A DNA stretch of 64,000 bases from Polaribacter sp. L3A8 (GTDB lineage: Bacteria; Bacteroidota; Bacteroidia; Flavobacteriales; Flavobacteriaceae): NCBI RefSeq assembly GCF_009796785.1, contig NZ_CP047026.1, positions 1,820,001 through 1,884,000 of the forward strand, read 5' to 3'. This document shows positions 26,418 to 61,939 of this stretch, piece by piece (positions within the stretch are counted from its first letter, which is position 1; each line of letters opens with the position of its first letter). The notes below the pieces were generated by a model, which did not search any database, was not told where the DNA came from, and saw only the letters and a list, made by a program, of their open reading frames with translations. The translations under genes and the position numbers were made by a program.

Positions 26418-26445
26418 GCTTTAGGCTTTAGGCTTTAGGCTTTAG
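26418..26445 (-). repeat. Heptanucleotide tandem array, GCTTTAG x4
   Basis: Four exact 7-bp units (plus-strand GCTTTAG) at 26418-26445, immediately 5' of the hemE start at 26411 on the minus strand. The rest of the 73-base hemL-hemE gap is ordinary sequence with AAGC echoes (TTAAAGC, TTAAGGC) that look like decayed units. Confidence 0.85.
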
Positions 26446-26484
26446 GCTACGCAGAGCTTAAAGCATATTGCTTAAGGCATTTAT

Positions 26485-31957: not shown

Positions 31958-32842
31958 ATGTTCAAAAATGTCGGAGAAAGTACATTTGAAGAAATTACTT
32001 TAGAAAAAGGTTTTTATCTGCTTCATTTTCAGAACGAAAGTAAAGAAATAGATAATTTTGATAGAAAAATTAACAATGCTTTTATTCAAATTCATTTTTG
32101 TTTACGAGGAAAAGCTAAATTTCTATTTAATAATGGTACTTATTCTTTTGATGTTTTAGACAACAGAGCTATTTTATTATACAATCCACAAAGAATTTTA
32201 CCCATCAATTTAGAAATTCAACCTAAAACAACATTGGTTTCCCTTTTAATTTCTATTGAAAAATTTCATTCATTATTCTCTAAAGAATCTAGTTATATCC
32301 CTTTTTTAAGTGATGAGAATAGTAACAAGAAATATTATGACGATTCTGAAATTAAACATGGTGTTGCCATGGTTTTACAAGAAATCATCAACTCTAAAAC
32401 AAATAATTCTATTAGAGACCTATATGTTAGAGGGAAAGTATACGAATTATTAAGTCTTCATTTTCAGAAGGAAGAAAATTTGGAAGGTGAATTTTGTCCT
32501 TTTTTAGTTGATGAACAGAATGTAATCAAAATAAGAAAAGCAAAAGAAATTATTATTTCTAGAATGGCAGAACCACCTAGTTTACAAGAACTAGCAAATG
32601 AAATCGGTCTAAATATTAAAAAATTAAAAGAAGGTTTTAAACAAATTTACGGCGATACCGTTTACAGTTTTTTACTTGACTATAAAATGGAGTATGCAAG
32701 AAAATTACTAGAAAGCAATCAATTTAATGTAAATGAAGTTGGTGTAAAAATTGGTTACAGTACAGCAAGTCATTTTATTGCAGCCTTTAAAAAGAAATTT
32801 GGTACTACACCAAAAAAACATGTATTAAGCACAAACCAGTAA
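31958..32842 (+). CDS. AraC-family transcriptional regulator next to heme genes
   Basis: 294 residues. The C-terminal 100 residues hold the double helix-turn-helix of AraC/XylS proteins: PSLQELANEIGLNIKKLKEGF for the first and NVNEVGVKIGYSTASHFIAAF for the second, followed by KKKFGTTPKKH. The N-terminal 180 residues are a divergent sensory domain of cupin-like strands (for example HFCLRGKAKFLFN near 45-57) without recognised ligand residues. It is divergent from hemA, which makes it a good candidate regulator of heme synthesis, for example in response to iron or heme, but no operator repeats were proven. Its stop codon lies inside the first unit of a 12-copy 7-bp array. Confidence 0.9.
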   Translation: MFKNVGESTFEEITLEKGFYLLHFQNESKEIDNFDRKINNAFIQIHFCLRGKAKFLFNNGTYSFDVLDNRAILLYNPQRILPINLEIQPKTTLVSLLISIEKFHSLFSKESSYIPFLSDENSNKKYYDDSEIKHGVAMVLQEIINSKTNNSIRDLYVRGKVYELLSLHFQKEENLEGEFCPFLVDEQNVIKIRKAKEIIISRMAEPPSLQELANEIGLNIKKLKEGFKQIYGDTVYSFLLDYKMEYARKLLESNQFNVNEVGVKIGYSTASHFIAAFKKKFGTTPKKHVLSTNQ

Positions 32843-32921
32843 GTAGTAAGCAGTAAGCAGTAAGCAGTAAGCAGTAAGCAGTAAGCAGTAAGCAGTAAGC
32901 AGTAAGCAGTAAGCAGTAAGC
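32838..32921 (+). repeat. Heptanucleotide tandem array, AGTAAGC x12
   Basis: Exactly 84 bases: one AGTAAGT unit then eleven AGTAAGC units. The first unit contains the TAA stop codon (32840-32842) of the AraC-type gene. Downstream follows AAAAATAAAAATTTGAAAC, a near match to the tail after the array at 61352. Copy number of such a perfect array is expected to vary between strains. Confidence 0.95.
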
Positions 32922-33011
32922 AAAAATAAAAATTTGAAACTCTGCAACTAAAAAAAATGAAACTTTGTTACTTTAAAACGCTGAACCTTTAAACCTTTTG
33001 AAATAAAAAAT

Positions 33012-33987: not shown

Positions 33988-34018
33988 AAACTTTGAAACT
34001 TTGAAACTTTGAAACTTT
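33988..34018 (+). repeat. Octamer array AAACTTTG upstream of hemH
   Basis: Three full AAACTTTG units and most of a fourth, ending five bases before the hemH ATG at 34024. The same unit appears downstream of the 61352 array (positions about 61402-61419) and in the gap at 1548-1560. Confidence 0.85.
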
Positions 34019-35367: not shown

Positions 35368-35961
35368 ATGGATTTTTTATACGTAAAAGCATTACATATT
35401 ATTTTTATTGTTACTTGGTTTGCAGGTTTATTTTACATTGTTCGTATATTTATGTATCATGTAGAAGCAGAAAAAAAAGACGAACCTGCAAAAGAAATTT
35501 TACAAACTCAATACAAATTAATGAGCAAAAGGTTGTGGTATATTATTACATGGCCTTCTGCAATTTTAGCAAGTATATTTGGTTTTTGGATGTTGTATAA
35601 AAACCCATATTATCTAGAAATGCCTTGGATGCACATAAAACTTTCTTTTGTTTTAGCTTTGTATGTTTATCATGGATTTTGCCATAAAATATACAAACAA
35701 TTACAGAATGATGTTATAAAGTACACTGCATTCAAACTAAGAATTATAAACGAAGCACCTACAATTATTTTATTTGCAGTAGTCTTTTTAGTAACACTGC
35801 AATCTGCAATAAATTGGATTTGGGGAGTTGTAGGTATTATCCTTTTTGGAGTACTATTGATGTTAGGCATTAGACTTTACAAAAAAATAAGAGAAAAAAG
35901 ATCTTGGGAAAAAACAGAAAGAGAGGTTTTAGAAGACAGTAAAGAAGATAGTATTCAGTAA
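35368..35961 (+). CDS. hemJ: HemJ/CopD-like membrane protein, candidate protoporphyrinogen IX oxidase
   Basis: 197 residues with about four membrane helices (7-28, 55-80, 88-107, 124-160) and a charged cytoplasmic tail. The first helix carries H10 in KALHIIFIVTWFAGLFYIVRIFMYH; the HIIFIVTWFAGLFY block, the later WP and HIKLSFVL, and a final NEAPTIILFAVVFLVTLQS are the family pattern of HemJ, a heme-dependent protoporphyrinogen oxidase. No HemG or HemY is in the window, so this completes the pathway between hemF and hemH. It is 327 bases from hemH. The C-terminal Ser-Ile-Gln is encoded by a degenerate repeat tract. Assignment by family resemblance and context. Confidence 0.85.
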   Translation: MDFLYVKALHIIFIVTWFAGLFYIVRIFMYHVEAEKKDEPAKEILQTQYKLMSKRLWYIITWPSAILASIFGFWMLYKNPYYLEMPWMHIKLSFVLALYVYHGFCHKIYKQLQNDVIKYTAFKLRIINEAPTIILFAVVFLVTLQSAINWIWGVVGIILFGVLLMLGIRLYKKIREKRSWEKTEREVLEDSKEDSIQ

Positions 35962-36020
35962 ACAGTCACAGTTTTCAGCCTCAGTGATTGTCTGTAAACT
36001 GCTACTGAAAACTGCAATTA
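35950..36020. repeat. Degenerate AGTnnnC heptad tract at the end of hemJ
   Basis: AGTATTC (35950-35956), AGTAAAC (35957-35963), AGTCAC, AGTTTTC (35970-35976) follow in register, then an inverted set (CTGTAAACTGCTACTGAAAACTGC) that on the minus strand reads AGTTTTC-AGTAGC-AGTTTAC. The hemJ stop codon TAA (35959-35961) is at positions 3-5 of the second unit. CAGTTTTCAG and CTGAAAACTG can pair and could also slow transcription between convergent hemJ and recR. Confidence 0.6.
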
Positions 36021-36022
36021 AA

Positions 36023-55077: not shown

Positions 55078-55090
55078 AATTTACAAATTT

Positions 55091-55155
55091 TGAATTATGA
55101 ATTATGAATTAAAGTAATTCGTAATTGATAATTATTAATTGAAAAACTGTTTACT
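55091..55155 (-). repeat. Spacer with TGAATTA x3 array and AGTAAAC/AGTTTTTC heptads at a stop codon
   Basis: Three exact TGAATTA units (55091-55111) near the start of the CCG gene and, at the stop codon of the Fe-S gene upstream, minus-strand AGTAAAC-AGTTTTTC (55141-55155) with the TAA stop at positions 3-5 of the first unit. The rest of the 73-base gap is A/T rich. Confidence 0.6.
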
Positions 55156-58698: not shown

Positions 58699-61353
58699 TT
58701 GCAAACAAACCTATCATACATTCTTTTATTCTGCGCTATATTTTTTATAGAAATAGGCTTTTCTCAAGAGCTAAAATCTAAAAATGTAACAGCACTTTCT
58801 ACTTCTAAGAAAGACTCTATTTTTAATGGTAAAAAAGATTCATTAGCCTTAAGAAAAACGGACACCATTGCGTTAGACTCTTTAAAGCCTAAAGAAACTA
58901 TAGAAGACCTTATTGTACACGTTGCCAAAGATTATACTATTCAGGATGCAAAGAACAAAACAGTTACTCTTTATAATGAAGCGAATATTACGTATACAGA
59001 CATCGATTTAAAGGCAGGTATAATAGTTGTAGATTATAAAAAAAACACGGTTTTTGCTAAAGGAATTATAGATAGCACAGGATATACACAGCGACCTGTT
59101 TTTAAACAAGGTAGCCAAGAATCTGAACAAGATTCTATTATTTATAATTTAAAAAGTAAAAAGGCTTTAATTTATGGTCTAAAAACCAAACAAGGAGAAA
59201 TGTTTACCTATGGTGAAAAAACCAAACGTGTAAATGATTCTACAGTTTACATTAGAAACATACGTTTTACTACTTCAGAAAAGAAAGTACCCGATTATTA
59301 TATTGCAACAGACAAAGCCAAATTAGTTCCCGGAAAAAAAATCATTGTAGGGACAAGTAATTTAGTTTTAGCAGACATACCTACACCAATCTTTTTACCT
59401 TTTGCTTATTTTCCGATAACAGAAACAAGTGTTTCTGGTTTTTTAATTCCGGCTTTTGATACTGGTAGTAGTGATCGTGGTATTGGTTTTCAAAATGGTG
59501 GTTATTATTTTGCAATTAGCGACTATATGGATTTAACCGTTTTGGGTGATGTCTATTCTAACGGAAGTTGGGGTTCTAGAATCTCTTCTAATTACAGAAA
59601 AAGATATCGTTTTAGTGGTTCTTTTAGTTTAAATTTTGAAAATAACATTAACGGAATTAGAGGATTTGATAATTATAGCAAAGCAAACAATTTTAATATC
59701 AGATGGTCTCATAGTCAAGATGCAAAAGCAAGCCCAAACTCTAGATTTACAGCTTCTGTAAACTTAGGTAGTAGTAAGTTCTTTAGAGAATCTCAAAATC
59801 AATTTAATGTTTCTCAGACACAAACAAACACACTTAGTTCTTCTATAAATTACAGTAAAACATTTGTTGGCACGCCTTTTAACATGAACCTTACGGCGAG
59901 TCATCAACAAAATACAAATACAGAAGAAATTACGATGACTTTACCATCGTTAACGGTAAACATGAACAGAGTATACCCATTTGCAGGAAAAGGTGGTGTA
60001 CAAAAAACTCCTATTCAAAAAATGGGTTTTAATTACACCATGCAAGGTCAGTATTTAATTAATACAAATGATGACGAGTTTTTTACCCCTAAAATGTTTG
60101 AAACTGCAAGATCTGGTGTACAACACAAAACAGGAACCAGCACAAACATAAAGGCTTTTAAATACTTTACGTTATCCCCAAGTGCTAATTATGAAGAAAC
60201 TTGGCAATTTGATTATATTCAAAAAAACTACGACATTACAGACAATGTTGTAGTAACCGATACACTTAGAGGTTTTAAAAGTTATAGAGAATACAACGCT
60301 GGTTTAAGTTTATCTACAAATATTTATGGTACATTCAATTTTAAGAAAGGACGCTTAAAAACAATTAGACATACTTTTAGACCTTCCGTTTCTTATTCTT
60401 ACAGACCCGATTTTAAAGATAAATACATACAACAAGTACAACAAAGTGCAGATGCTACTGATTTATTAGACTACACCGTTTATGACCAAGGTATTTACGG
60501 AGCTCCATCTTCTGGCTTAAGTAACTCTATTGGTATTTCATTAAACAACGTAATTGAGGCCAAGGTAGCACCAAAAGACCCCGAAAGCGATGAAGAGGAT
60601 GAAAAAATTACTATTTTAAATAATTTAAATTTTAGTAGTTCATATAATATTGCTGCAGACAGTTTAAGATGGTCTCCTGTAAGTTTTTCTGCAGGAACAC
60701 GTTTATTTAAAGATAAGCTATCTGTTAACTTAAGTGGTTCTATGGATCCTTATAAAGTAAACAGTAATGGAGTAAGAATTAATGAATACAATGCAAACAT
60801 CTTACGTTTAACCAATGCAAGTTTAACAGCTAATTATTCTATCTCTAGTGCTGATTTTGATAAAGACAAGAAAGACAAACAAAAAAACAACAACGCAAAT
60901 AACACTCCTGATGTTATTGGTGCAGATATAAACCCAACAGATCGATTTGGAGAACAAAAAGGCATTAATACTGAAGAAAAAGATAAGAACAAAGAAGCAA
61001 AATTATATAGATCAGACATTCCTTGGTCTATCAATTTAGCATATTCTACAAGTTACACCAATAATGGTATAGATGGTGGAAATATAGGTATACACAGTAT
61101 TATGTTTAGTGGTAATTTAGAGTTATCTCCTAAATGGAAAATGGGTTATTCTTCTGGGTATGATGTTAAAGGAGGTGCATTTACGTTTTCTAGATTTAAT
61201 TTTACCAGAGACTTAGATAGCTGGCAATTTAATTTTAACTGGGTTCCTTTTGGTACAAATTCTTCTTATACCTTTTTTATTGGGGTAAAATCTTCTGTGT
61301 TATCAGATCTTAAGTGGGATAAAAACAAACCAGCAGATAGAAGGTTATTCTAG
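58699..61353 (+). CDS. LptD-like LPS-assembly outer membrane protein
   Basis: 884 residues, TTG start, signal peptide MQTNLSYILLFCAIFFIEIGFSQ. An N-terminal OstA-like domain (residues 60-250; VTLYNEANITYTDIDLKAGIIVVDY, NLKSKKALIYGLKTKQGE, LADIPTPIFLPFAYFPI) is followed by a long barrel of alternating strands ending in WNFNWVPFGTNSSYTFFIGVKSSVLSDLKWD. This is the flavobacterial form of LptD, which inserts lipopolysaccharide in the outer leaflet; its partner LptE is not visible. Its TAG stop lies at the edge of a 6-copy 7-bp array. Confidence 0.87.
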   Translation: MQTNLSYILLFCAIFFIEIGFSQELKSKNVTALSTSKKDSIFNGKKDSLALRKTDTIALDSLKPKETIEDLIVHVAKDYTIQDAKNKTVTLYNEANITYTDIDLKAGIIVVDYKKNTVFAKGIIDSTGYTQRPVFKQGSQESEQDSIIYNLKSKKALIYGLKTKQGEMFTYGEKTKRVNDSTVYIRNIRFTTSEKKVPDYYIATDKAKLVPGKKIIVGTSNLVLADIPTPIFLPFAYFPITETSVSGFLIPAFDTGSSDRGIGFQNGGYYFAISDYMDLTVLGDVYSNGSWGSRISSNYRKRYRFSGSFSLNFENNINGIRGFDNYSKANNFNIRWSHSQDAKASPNSRFTASVNLGSSKFFRESQNQFNVSQTQTNTLSSSINYSKTFVGTPFNMNLTASHQQNTNTEEITMTLPSLTVNMNRVYPFAGKGGVQKTPIQKMGFNYTMQGQYLINTNDDEFFTPKMFETARSGVQHKTGTSTNIKAFKYFTLSPSANYEETWQFDYIQKNYDITDNVVVTDTLRGFKSYREYNAGLSLSTNIYGTFNFKKGRLKTIRHTFRPSVSYSYRPDFKDKYIQQVQQSADATDLLDYTVYDQGIYGAPSSGLSNSIGISLNNVIEAKVAPKDPESDEEDEKITILNNLNFSSSYNIAADSLRWSPVSFSAGTRLFKDKLSVNLSGSMDPYKVNSNGVRINEYNANILRLTNASLTANYSISSADFDKDKKDKQKNNNANNTPDVIGADINPTDRFGEQKGINTEEKDKNKEAKLYRSDIPWSINLAYSTSYTNNGIDGGNIGIHSIMFSGNLELSPKWKMGYSSGYDVKGGAFTFSRFNFTRDLDSWQFNFNWVPFGTNSSYTFFIGVKSSVLSDLKWDKNKPADRRLF

Positions 61354-61393
61354 TTAGCAGTTAGCAGTTAGCAGTTAGCAGTTAGCAGTTAGC
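61352..61393 (+). repeat. Heptanucleotide tandem array, AGTTAGC x6
   Basis: Six exact AGTTAGC units, beginning with the AG of the TAG stop codon (61351-61353) of the LptD-like gene. The array is followed by AAAAATAAAAACTTTGAAAC and further AAACTTTG units up to the ridA start. Confidence 0.95.
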
Positions 61394-61431
61394 AAAAATA
61401 AAAACTTTGAAACTTTGAAACTTTAAGAAAA

Positions 61432-61812
61432 ATGAAAATAATAATAACAACTACAAAAGCACCAGCTCCAATAGGCCCATATAACCAAGCGGTATTAAGT
61501 GGAAACACTTTATATACTTCTGGCCAAATAGCTATTAATCCTGATACAGGAGAACTTGTTTTAGACTCTATTAAAGAAGAAACAACACAAGTTATGGAAA
61601 ATTTAAAAGAAGTGTTAGCTGCCGCTGATATGACTTTCGAAAACGTAATTAAAACATCTATATTTATTTCTGATATGAATAACTTCGGAGAAATAAATGC
61701 TGTTTACGCAGCGTATTTTAATGAAGAAACTGCTCCGGCAAGAGAAACTGTAGAAGTAGCAAACTTACCTAAATTTGTTAATGTAGAAATAAGTGCTATT
61801 GCTGTAAAATAG
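61432..61812 (+). CDS. ridA: RidA-family reactive intermediate deaminase
   Basis: 126 residues; hydrolyses 2-aminoacrylate and related enamine/imine intermediates to keto acids, protecting PLP enzymes. APIGPYNQAVLSGNTLYTSGQIAI near 12-35, ETTQVMENLKEVLAAADMTFENVIKTSIFISDMNNF near 50-85 and the C-terminal ARETVEVANLPKFVNVEISAIAVK with the catalytic Arg in ARETV are family hallmarks. It sits between two 7-bp arrays; its TAG stop overlaps the first unit of the second one. Confidence 0.95.
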   Translation: MKIIITTTKAPAPIGPYNQAVLSGNTLYTSGQIAINPDTGELVLDSIKEETTQVMENLKEVLAAADMTFENVIKTSIFISDMNNFGEINAVYAAYFNEETAPARETVEVANLPKFVNVEISAIAVK

Positions 61813-61894
61813 TATTCAGTATTCAGTATTCAGTATTCAGTATTCAGTATTCAGTATTCAGTATTCAGTATTCAGTATTCAGTATTCAGTATTC
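61811..61894 (+). repeat. Heptanucleotide tandem array, AGTATTC x12
   Basis: Twelve exact AGTATTC units (84 bases), the first starting with the AG of the ridA TAG stop (61810-61812). The array contains no further stop codon in the unit, unlike AGTAAGC. It ends at AAAACTAAAAAAAACC, where the terminator begins. Confidence 0.95.
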
Positions 61895-61901
61895 AAAACT
61901 A

Positions 61902-61939
61902 AAAAAAACCTGATAGAAATTAATCTACCAGGTTTTTTT
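61902..61939. terminator. Bidirectional terminator between ridA and gapA
   Basis: AAAAAAACCTGATAGA pairs with TCTACCAGGTTTTTTT with one mismatch, with A and T tracts on either side. It lies between convergent ridA and gapA. Confidence 0.88.

Follow-up and report, generated by a model that had tools for sequence, protein, structure and literature searches.

Heptanucleotide AGT repeats at gene edges in Polaribacter and their possible origin by lagging-strand slippage

Why should tandem repeats of seven bases begin where a gene ends? The question is raised by a 64,000-nt stretch of Polaribacter sp. L3A8 (the window; bases 1820001-1884000 of G000, a single-contig genome of 4.22 Mb), with a GC content of 29.8%, for which a preliminary description had reported five arrays of AGT-initial units anchored at stop codons. 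Three of the five are true arrays, and re-reading confirmed the coordinates given for them and for their stops. AGTAAGT-(AGTAAGC)x11 occupies 32838..32921 (+) as 12 units; it is flush with, and contains, the stop of an AraC-type (HTH_18) gene (31958-32842), whose TAA (32840..32842, +) takes up positions 3-5 of unit 1. The second array, (AGTTAGC)x6 at 61352..61393 (+), begins on the AG of the TAG (61351-61353) of an LptD-like gene, and the third, (AGTATTC)x12 at 61811..61894 (+), on the AG of the ridA TAG (61810-61812). All three are homogeneous, with perfect or near-perfect tandem 7-nt copies, and thus belong with heptanucleotide tandem repeats of the STRR or long SSR kind. Each is bounded on its 3' side by an A-tract, namely AAAAATAAAAA at 32922..32932 (+), AAAAATAAAAA again at 61394..61404 (+), and AAAACTAAAAAAAA at 61895..61908 (+). 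An inverted repeat with a T-run at 61909..61939 (+) is probably the intrinsic terminator of ridA.

The remaining two sites did not hold up as arrays. Over the hemJ stop lies a four-word mosaic, AGTATTC-AGTAAAC-AGTCAC-AGTTTTC (35950..35976, +), with the TAA (35959-35961) in its second word, and facing ACT words (AGT on the minus strand) of irregular spacing lie by the convergent recR stop (35994..36022, -). The tract over the stop of an Fe-S gene, AGTAAACAGTTTTTC (55141..55155, -), holds two AGT words (AGTAAAC and AGTTTTT) and is too short to be called an array. The names of the five genes are supported by Pfam matches (HTH_18, UPF0093, Fer4, LptD_2 and Ribonuc_L-PSP), of which we take UPF0093 to be HemJ. 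The window also holds 8-bp arrays of AAACTTTG directly 5' of start codons (33988-34018 and 61402-61424), and runs of the similar GAAACTTT lie ahead of starts in several congeners. Two further heptad arrays lack AGT: GCTTTAG x4.4 between two minus-strand genes (26418-26448) and AATTATG x3.7 downstream of the Fe-S gene (55086-55111).

Tracts were collected with AGT or CAGT patterns as search keys, so that the constancy of AGT among them is partly by construction. Our main set comprises 130 tracts of at least four AGT heptads at 101 loci of G000 and five congeners, among the matches listed; its 78 congener regions are likewise those among the matches listed, two listed places in G079 being left out. 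Genes are ORF calls, not annotation, and because starts were assigned with a preference for upstream ATGs, distances to start edges may come out too short. The tracts are mainly intergenic, with 10 of the 130 inside ORFs and 118 others flanked by an ORF on each side. A 24-unit CAGTTAT array of G000 (L403, ~4.033 Mb) was called inside an ORF. The pattern (CAGTNNN)x4 has 164 overlapping matches in G000 versus 0 for its reversed form; the corresponding counts for four AGT heptads across 24 genomes of the genus are 218 and 47. For G000 the list is complete for CAGT arrays of at least 4 units (41 of 62 reverse matches come from collected loci and the other 21 from the 24-unit array at 4033088) and incomplete for other AGT units; an unselected 772-kb census of this genome found two perfect heptad arrays of at least 3 copies, one of AGTGATA and neither of the CAGT type. 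We rejected the idea that heptads are a feature of all gene ends. AGT pairs after stops at spacings of 6, 7 and 8 number 21, 16 and 8 in unselected DNA of the same genome, a weak signal, and 25, 54 and 27 in array-picked windows of relatives with the arrays masked, where alone it is clear. Beside heptad tracts at L364, L358 and L361 are 6-bp runs of the CAGTCT and CAGTAG type, in which CAGT recurs at period 6.

The position of the tracts within their gaps is strikingly one-sided. Ninety-seven of the 118 intergenic tracts start within 30 nt of a CDS edge, the median distance of the AGT end being 5.5 nt; at the other end, 8 come as close as 30 nt to the following CDS (median 107 nt). Starts within 15 nt of a CDS edge (93 of 118) compare with 22.7 expected and a maximum of 37 in 5000 random placements. 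The earlier suspicion that chance would hardly place arrays at stops is therefore borne out against random placement, both in this genus sample and in the cross-phylum sample below. After a co-oriented stop there are 78 tracts, of which 30 overlap the stop and 36 start 0-10 nt downstream; 3 more start 11-21 nt away, the range of 22-32 nt is empty, and the last 9 lie beyond it. Another 40 lie beside an opposite gene, and in 26 of these the first unit begins 5-12 nt outside the start codon of that gene. A larger set of 151 tracts, counting all AGT units, has 96 with a co-oriented left gene and 55 with an opposite one; 28 of these 55 antisense tracts start within 10 nt of the start codon (null 6.1). 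The stop codon itself is thus not the anchor that it had been supposed to be, and what the tracts keep to is the edge of the gap, because they also moor antisense at start edges. The reverse polarity is rare: of 74 tracts that have a facing stop, 1 brings its 3' end to within 10 nt of it, and so does 1 of the 77 that have a facing start (7 of 77 within 30 nt). Arrays with in-frame stops can themselves end an ORF; however, 8 of 9 stop-free sense tracts start within 10 nt of a stop, and where a tract starts after the stop, the stop is not part of it.

The same geometry extends beyond the genus. A search through the contigs of GTDB for the four-heptad CAGT pattern, which gives no rates and some of whose mosaic matches may be chance, returned at least 119 stretches with, among the matches listed, 150 tracts, 110 of them intergenic with neighbours. 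Among these listed matches, 54 of the 110 have a CDS edge no more than 10 nt from their start, 41 of them following a co-oriented stop, where 17.2 ± 2.8 are expected with a maximum of 28 in 5000 placements; 20 of the 110 come equally close to the next CDS at their other end. These counts cover all 119 listed stretches without labels, and phylum labels were assigned from titles for 80 of the at least 119. Among those 80, a Lacinutrix MAG gives the window its closest protein matches (66.9 and 66.6% over 344 and 290 aa), which suggests a relative of the Flavobacteriaceae. The labelled stretches hold 70 tracts, of which 34 start within 10 nt of an edge (26 after a stop) and 15 lie so at the 3' end. 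Among the matches listed, the 26 after-stop tracts come from Cyanobacteria (12), Bacteroidota (5), Chloroflexi (3), Acidobacteria (3) and one each from a deltaproteobacterium, a planctomycete and a kiritimatiellate; once the Bacteroidota are set aside, 27 of 56 listed tracts have their start, and 13 their end, within 10 nt of an edge. Stop-free tracts lie near a stop in 2 of 7 cases (null 0.5), a weak test. C-rich units (CAGTCCC and CAGTCCT) lean the opposite way: by eye, and among the matches listed, the distance to a CDS is at most 13 nt at the 3' end in five of nine and at the 5' end in one, which means that the AGT-first polarity is not universal. Within the phylum of the window, the CAGT heptad pattern has matches in 99 of 296 genomes. 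In three genomes (G377, G188 and G265) the reversed control (TGAC at period 7) matches many times and CAGT not at all, and it follows that other heptad families exist.

We also classed the tracts of 100 gaps by their composition, finding 28 homogeneous and 72 mosaic. An opposing arm of at least two units is present in 38 of the 72 mosaic gaps versus 1.6 expected, and in 2 of the 28 homogeneous gaps versus 0.5 expected. Mosaics favour ATT, TGG, TTT, CTT, AGG and TTG as NNN, and the seventh base of their words, ahead of the next AGT, is C in 271, T in 50, A in 34 and G in 23. The NNN of facing arms match less often than those of re-paired arms (170 vs 204.7 ± 12.7 in 38 gaps; an earlier count in which some gaps appeared twice gave 236 vs 246.8 ± 10.3), so a perfect stem is not being maintained. 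The longest perfect stem is close to that with random NNN (mean 9.84 vs 9.57; at least 12 bp in 24% vs 18%). We therefore rejected a perfect hairpin or intrinsic terminator as the identity of the tracts, since the facing NNN mismatch and the arms are not complementary. Homogeneous arrays have a boundary of their own. Within a window of the last 6 nt of the run and the next 17 nt, 31 of 61 homogeneous arrays have AAANTRAAA at their 3' boundary, versus 7 of 346 windows after stops; it is absent there from the other 30, occurs further downstream in 2 of 61 and on the 5' flank in 0 of 61. In a second list it accompanies 18 of 40 homogeneous tracts, none of the 11 three-run tracts and none of the 104 mosaics. 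An A-tract with a single AGT word was tried as the common seed and was not clearly enriched (17 vs 13 for the control word). Divergent units lie on the 5' side in 13 and on the 3' side in 23 of the 61 homogeneous arrays, and polar growth is not established because they occupy both ends.

Orthologous sites show how the arrays change. Orthologs of the LptD-ridA region were fetched by coding-DNA homology and are free of the AGT search bias. At the ridA stop, 7 of 29 orthologs, G000 included, carry a perfect array of at least 3 copies and the other 22 do not; the seven have four different units depending on the species: AGTATTC (in 12, 9, 8 or 4 copies), AGTAGGC, AGTTTTT or the 8-mer AGACTTTT. One further genome has three AGTTGTT-like words, and the remaining orthologs have none. 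The LptD stop bears a perfect AGT array of at least 3 copies in 3 of 29 orthologs, of AGTTAGC (G000), AGTTTGA (L269) and AGTTAGT (L294). At the end of the AraC gene, AGTAAGC of G000 is replaced by AGTAATC and AGTTAGA in the orthologous gaps of G088 and G068, and one gap (L034) has AGTATTC, AGTAAGC, AGTTATC, AGTTGGA or a mosaic in five species; regions at these two sites were partly chosen for carrying arrays and are thus partly AGT-biased. That one gene end carries different AGT-sharing words by species points to copying slips rather than one conserved message. The distance from the ridA stop to the terminator is 103, 82, 74 and 53 nt for 12, 9, 8 and 4 units and 19-41 nt in the six array-free orthologs measured, so that length varies between species by whole units. 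Growth by overwriting was rejected at ridA, where arrays add length. A CCTGA.A terminator stem lies downstream of ridA in 13 of 13 orthologs measured, with or without an array, and the A-rich stretch is already present in orthologs with 0-2 words (L266, L272, L274 and L275).

To assign arrays to replication strands, the origin of G000 has to be placed. The sign of the GC3 skew switches at 2.86-2.96 Mb and again at 0.44-0.55 Mb, a pattern broken by one of 41 stretches, and the 16S matches, two of them full-length (1.75 and 2.46 Mb) and the others partial (1.20 and 2.46 Mb), all lie on the minus strand. As skew change and rRNA strands agree, the origin is probably near 2.9 Mb. The dnaA gene is at base 514, ~1.3 Mb away from the origin suggested by these features. 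Strands were called from 20-kb skew windows, seven period-7 arrays and one period-8 array with AGT on neither or both strands being set aside. AGT is on the nascent lagging strand in 15 of the 16 known G000 arrays of at least 4 perfect copies and in 32 of 41 arrays of eight congeners, together 47 of 57 (p 7.5e-7), or 45 of 55 without two ridA orthologs (p 2.1e-6); arrays with |skew| of at least 0.03 give 29 of 36. The bias is confined to part of the genus: G068, G088, G072, G080 and G074 have 29 of 32 and G079, G061 and G087 have 3 of 9, a split into two groups made after seeing the result. By sequence identity, G079 is no more distant than G068. Local skew over 3-4 kb was discarded as too noisy for strand calls (21 of 37 for runs of at least 4), and for mosaics it is this noisy measure that gives 37 vs 50 among single-run tracts. 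The 8-mer arrays with AGT on one strand, four of four and each of a different unit, are all opposite in strand.

The reading that we favour, tentatively, is that homogeneous arrays arise by lagging-strand slippage from AGTNNNC seeds beside an A-tract. Homogeneous tracts would be AGTNNNC (often CAGTNNN) heptanucleotide tandem repeats growing by insertion of whole 7-nt units, from a seed of one or two AGTNNNC words between the gene end and the A-tract. Having copied AGTNNNC, the nascent lagging strand would meet the weakly paired A-tract, where its end may fray and re-pair one unit back, each such re-pairing adding a unit. Growth at the 3' end would push the A-tract away, and the 5' end would stay at the CDS, entry into which selection presumably forbids. 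Arrays would then be held at the gene end because the seed lies there and growth cannot pass, and the unit would turn over while AGT and the place remain because new variants spread by slippage. The model is based on the flush 5' ends, the whole-unit steps and the differing units at the same orthologous stop, and further on the A-tract 3' boundary in half of the arrays and the lagging-strand AGT in most G000 arrays and part of the genus. Against it count the 3 of 9 in G079, G061 and G087, the 30 of 61 arrays without the A-tract motif, the near-control frequency of single words ahead of an A-tract, the divergent units at both ends, the 22 of 29 ridA orthologs lacking a perfect array and the Xanthomonas heptamers without leading/lagging preference (PMC4692102). 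Slippage alone also leaves unexplained why AGT is kept rather than NNN, as well as the facing mosaics. The mosaic, often facing tracts form a second class that may represent old diverged arrays or the substrate for expansion.

Seeding by the stop codon itself, as suggested in the preliminary description, would have TAG, or AGTAA/AGTAG around the stop, supply the first AG of the unit; we consider this possible, if rather doubtful. TAG stops are indeed in excess ahead of sense tracts (32 of 78 vs 52 of 209 in the same regions; Fisher p 0.009), and 9 of 78 sense tracts begin on the AG of TAG, at -2, with another 12 of 78 beginning at -5. The TAG excess and the starts on its AG are what the suggestion would predict. 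However, a stop codon is not needed, as tracts moor likewise in antisense at start edges (28 of 55 within 10 nt), 36 of the 78 sense tracts start 0-10 nt past the stop and not in it, and some of the overlapping stops may be made by the array itself. It is also unlikely, in our judgement, that the tracts are selected, with AGU words after stops, ACU words before starts or a facing-arm hairpin acting in termination, mRNA stability or translation. A match of facing NNN below the re-paired control and a longest stem near random speak against a maintained hairpin, homogeneous arrays seldom have a facing arm (2 of 28), and array-free orthologs retain the terminator stem. What selection would account for is the recurrence of AGT while NNN varies (AGT being the search key), the opposing arms of at least two units in 38 of 72 mosaic gaps versus 1.6 expected, the 5 of 118 tracts in divergent gaps (a raw count) and the tracts at the same gene pairs in several species, in regions largely picked for tracts.

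A link to priming appears improbable to us. In several bacteria DnaG primers begin AG, which follows from pairing opposite 5'-CTG or 5'-CTA, and arrays could come from abortive or repeated lagging-strand priming. CTG and CTA are the start sites of several bacterial primases (PMC5204125). On the copied strand C or T would precede AG and units would begin there. In favour, the AGT strand is nascent lagging in 47 of 57 arrays, and the base before the next AGT in mosaics is mostly C (C 271, T 50, A 34, G 23). However, the C preference comes partly from the CAGT search keys, the T after AG is unexplained, homogeneous AAGT arrays (AGTTGGA, AGTTTGA, AGTTAGA) are common, three congeners lack the strand bias, and primases differ. 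Very improbable is a discrete inserted element, in which a transposase or reverse transcriptase would have set down a repeat body with an A-rich tail next to genes. The defined 3' boundary in half of the homogeneous arrays and their rare facing arms would suit such an element, but the A-rich stretch pre-exists in the orthologs with 0-2 words (L266, L272, L274, L275) and the unit differs between loci and species.

How do the AGT tracts compare with repeats already described? The closest relatives are the G-rich heptamers of Rehm et al. 2015, GGGNATC in Xanthomonas and GGGGA(C/T)T in Nostoc, and stop anchoring, which the preliminary description had believed undescribed, was reported for them (PMC4692102). 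Their preferred places are the 50 bp next to a stop, when on the sense strand, or next to a start, when on the antisense strand; some overlap the stop codon, and those of Xanthomonas average 28 nt from the 5' neighbouring ORF versus 160 nt downstream (PMC4692102). Convergent pairs occur in Xanthomonas, the heptamers are under-represented between divergent ORFs, and two species have them mostly at the same gene pairs with varying length and sequence (PMC4692102). In common with them, the AGT tracts have period 7, heterogeneous or perfect units and mooring to the edge of the 5' neighbouring ORF, in either orientation; the opposite polarity of the C-rich CAGT units also agrees with that study, in which the G-rich strand faces away from the ORF (PMC4692102). 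In contrast, the AGT tracts consist of AGTNNNC units without G-tracts. AGTAAGC, AGTTAGC and AGTATTC have no quadruplex-capable runs of three or four G, so the edge geometry does not need a G-quadruplex, and its recurrence in AT-rich units means that it cannot rest on quadruplexes alone. The AGT tracts also have a strand bias in part of the genus and an A-tract boundary, whereas that study reports no leading/lagging preference for the Xanthomonas heptamers (PMC4692102).

MacGregor 2015 described TAACTGA direct repeats, in the main species mostly just upstream of start codons, and read them as a translational signal or a horizontal import, with other arrangements in Microcystis (PMC4679880). TAACTGA is the reverse complement of TCAGTTA, that is, of the CAGTTAT unit, and the CAGTTAT arrays of G000 at 1956468 and 4033088 are thus repeats of this kind; the presence of other units makes the class wider than TAACTGA repeats. 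AGTTATC arrays with neighbours lie at start edges in L231 and L400 and at stops in L395 and, twice, in L402. One Flexibacter TAACTGA set lies right after a stop in reverse orientation, which is the geometry of the AGT tracts (PMC4679880). The stem P6b of the Nostoc trnL intron is built of degenerate heptanucleotide repeats pairing as a hairpin (PMC3488679). Cyanobacterial STRR or P6b heptads and AGT tracts are both degenerate heptads, but P6b folds within an intron (PMC3488679) whereas facing AGT arms mismatch in NNN. Mrazek et al. 2007, as cited in PMC4679880, found heptamers to be the most abundant class of long SSRs in most genomes and proposed polymerase slippage for them; the heptamer excess is common to both, and the citing passages mention no edge mooring, strand bias or unit turnover.

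That all these repeats are local dialects (G-rich, TAACTGA, AGTNNNC) of one replication-driven heptad process at bacterial gene edges, a fork-orientated, motif-phased polymerase or primase event repeatedly inserting 7-nt units, we regard as doubtful. If it is true, gene ends carry arrays stable in position that turn over in sequence. Different units at one orthologous stop provide a natural experiment on tandem-repeat renewal, and the strand bias and A-tract boundary, if upheld, would make the heptamer dominance of bacterial simple repeats testable in a cultivable relative. In the open-access literature searched, no description came up of such repeats changing their unit at a fixed stop, ending at an A-tract or favouring a replication strand. 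The edge geometry is already known for G-rich units (PMC4692102), and the TAACTGA work covers one heptamer (PMC4679880), whereas the AGT tracts vary freely in NNN and exchange their units at a given site. As far as searched, what the AGT tracts add is that their units are AT-rich and lack G-tracts, that these turn over at a stop which stays in place, and that the arrays show the strand bias and the A-tract boundary.
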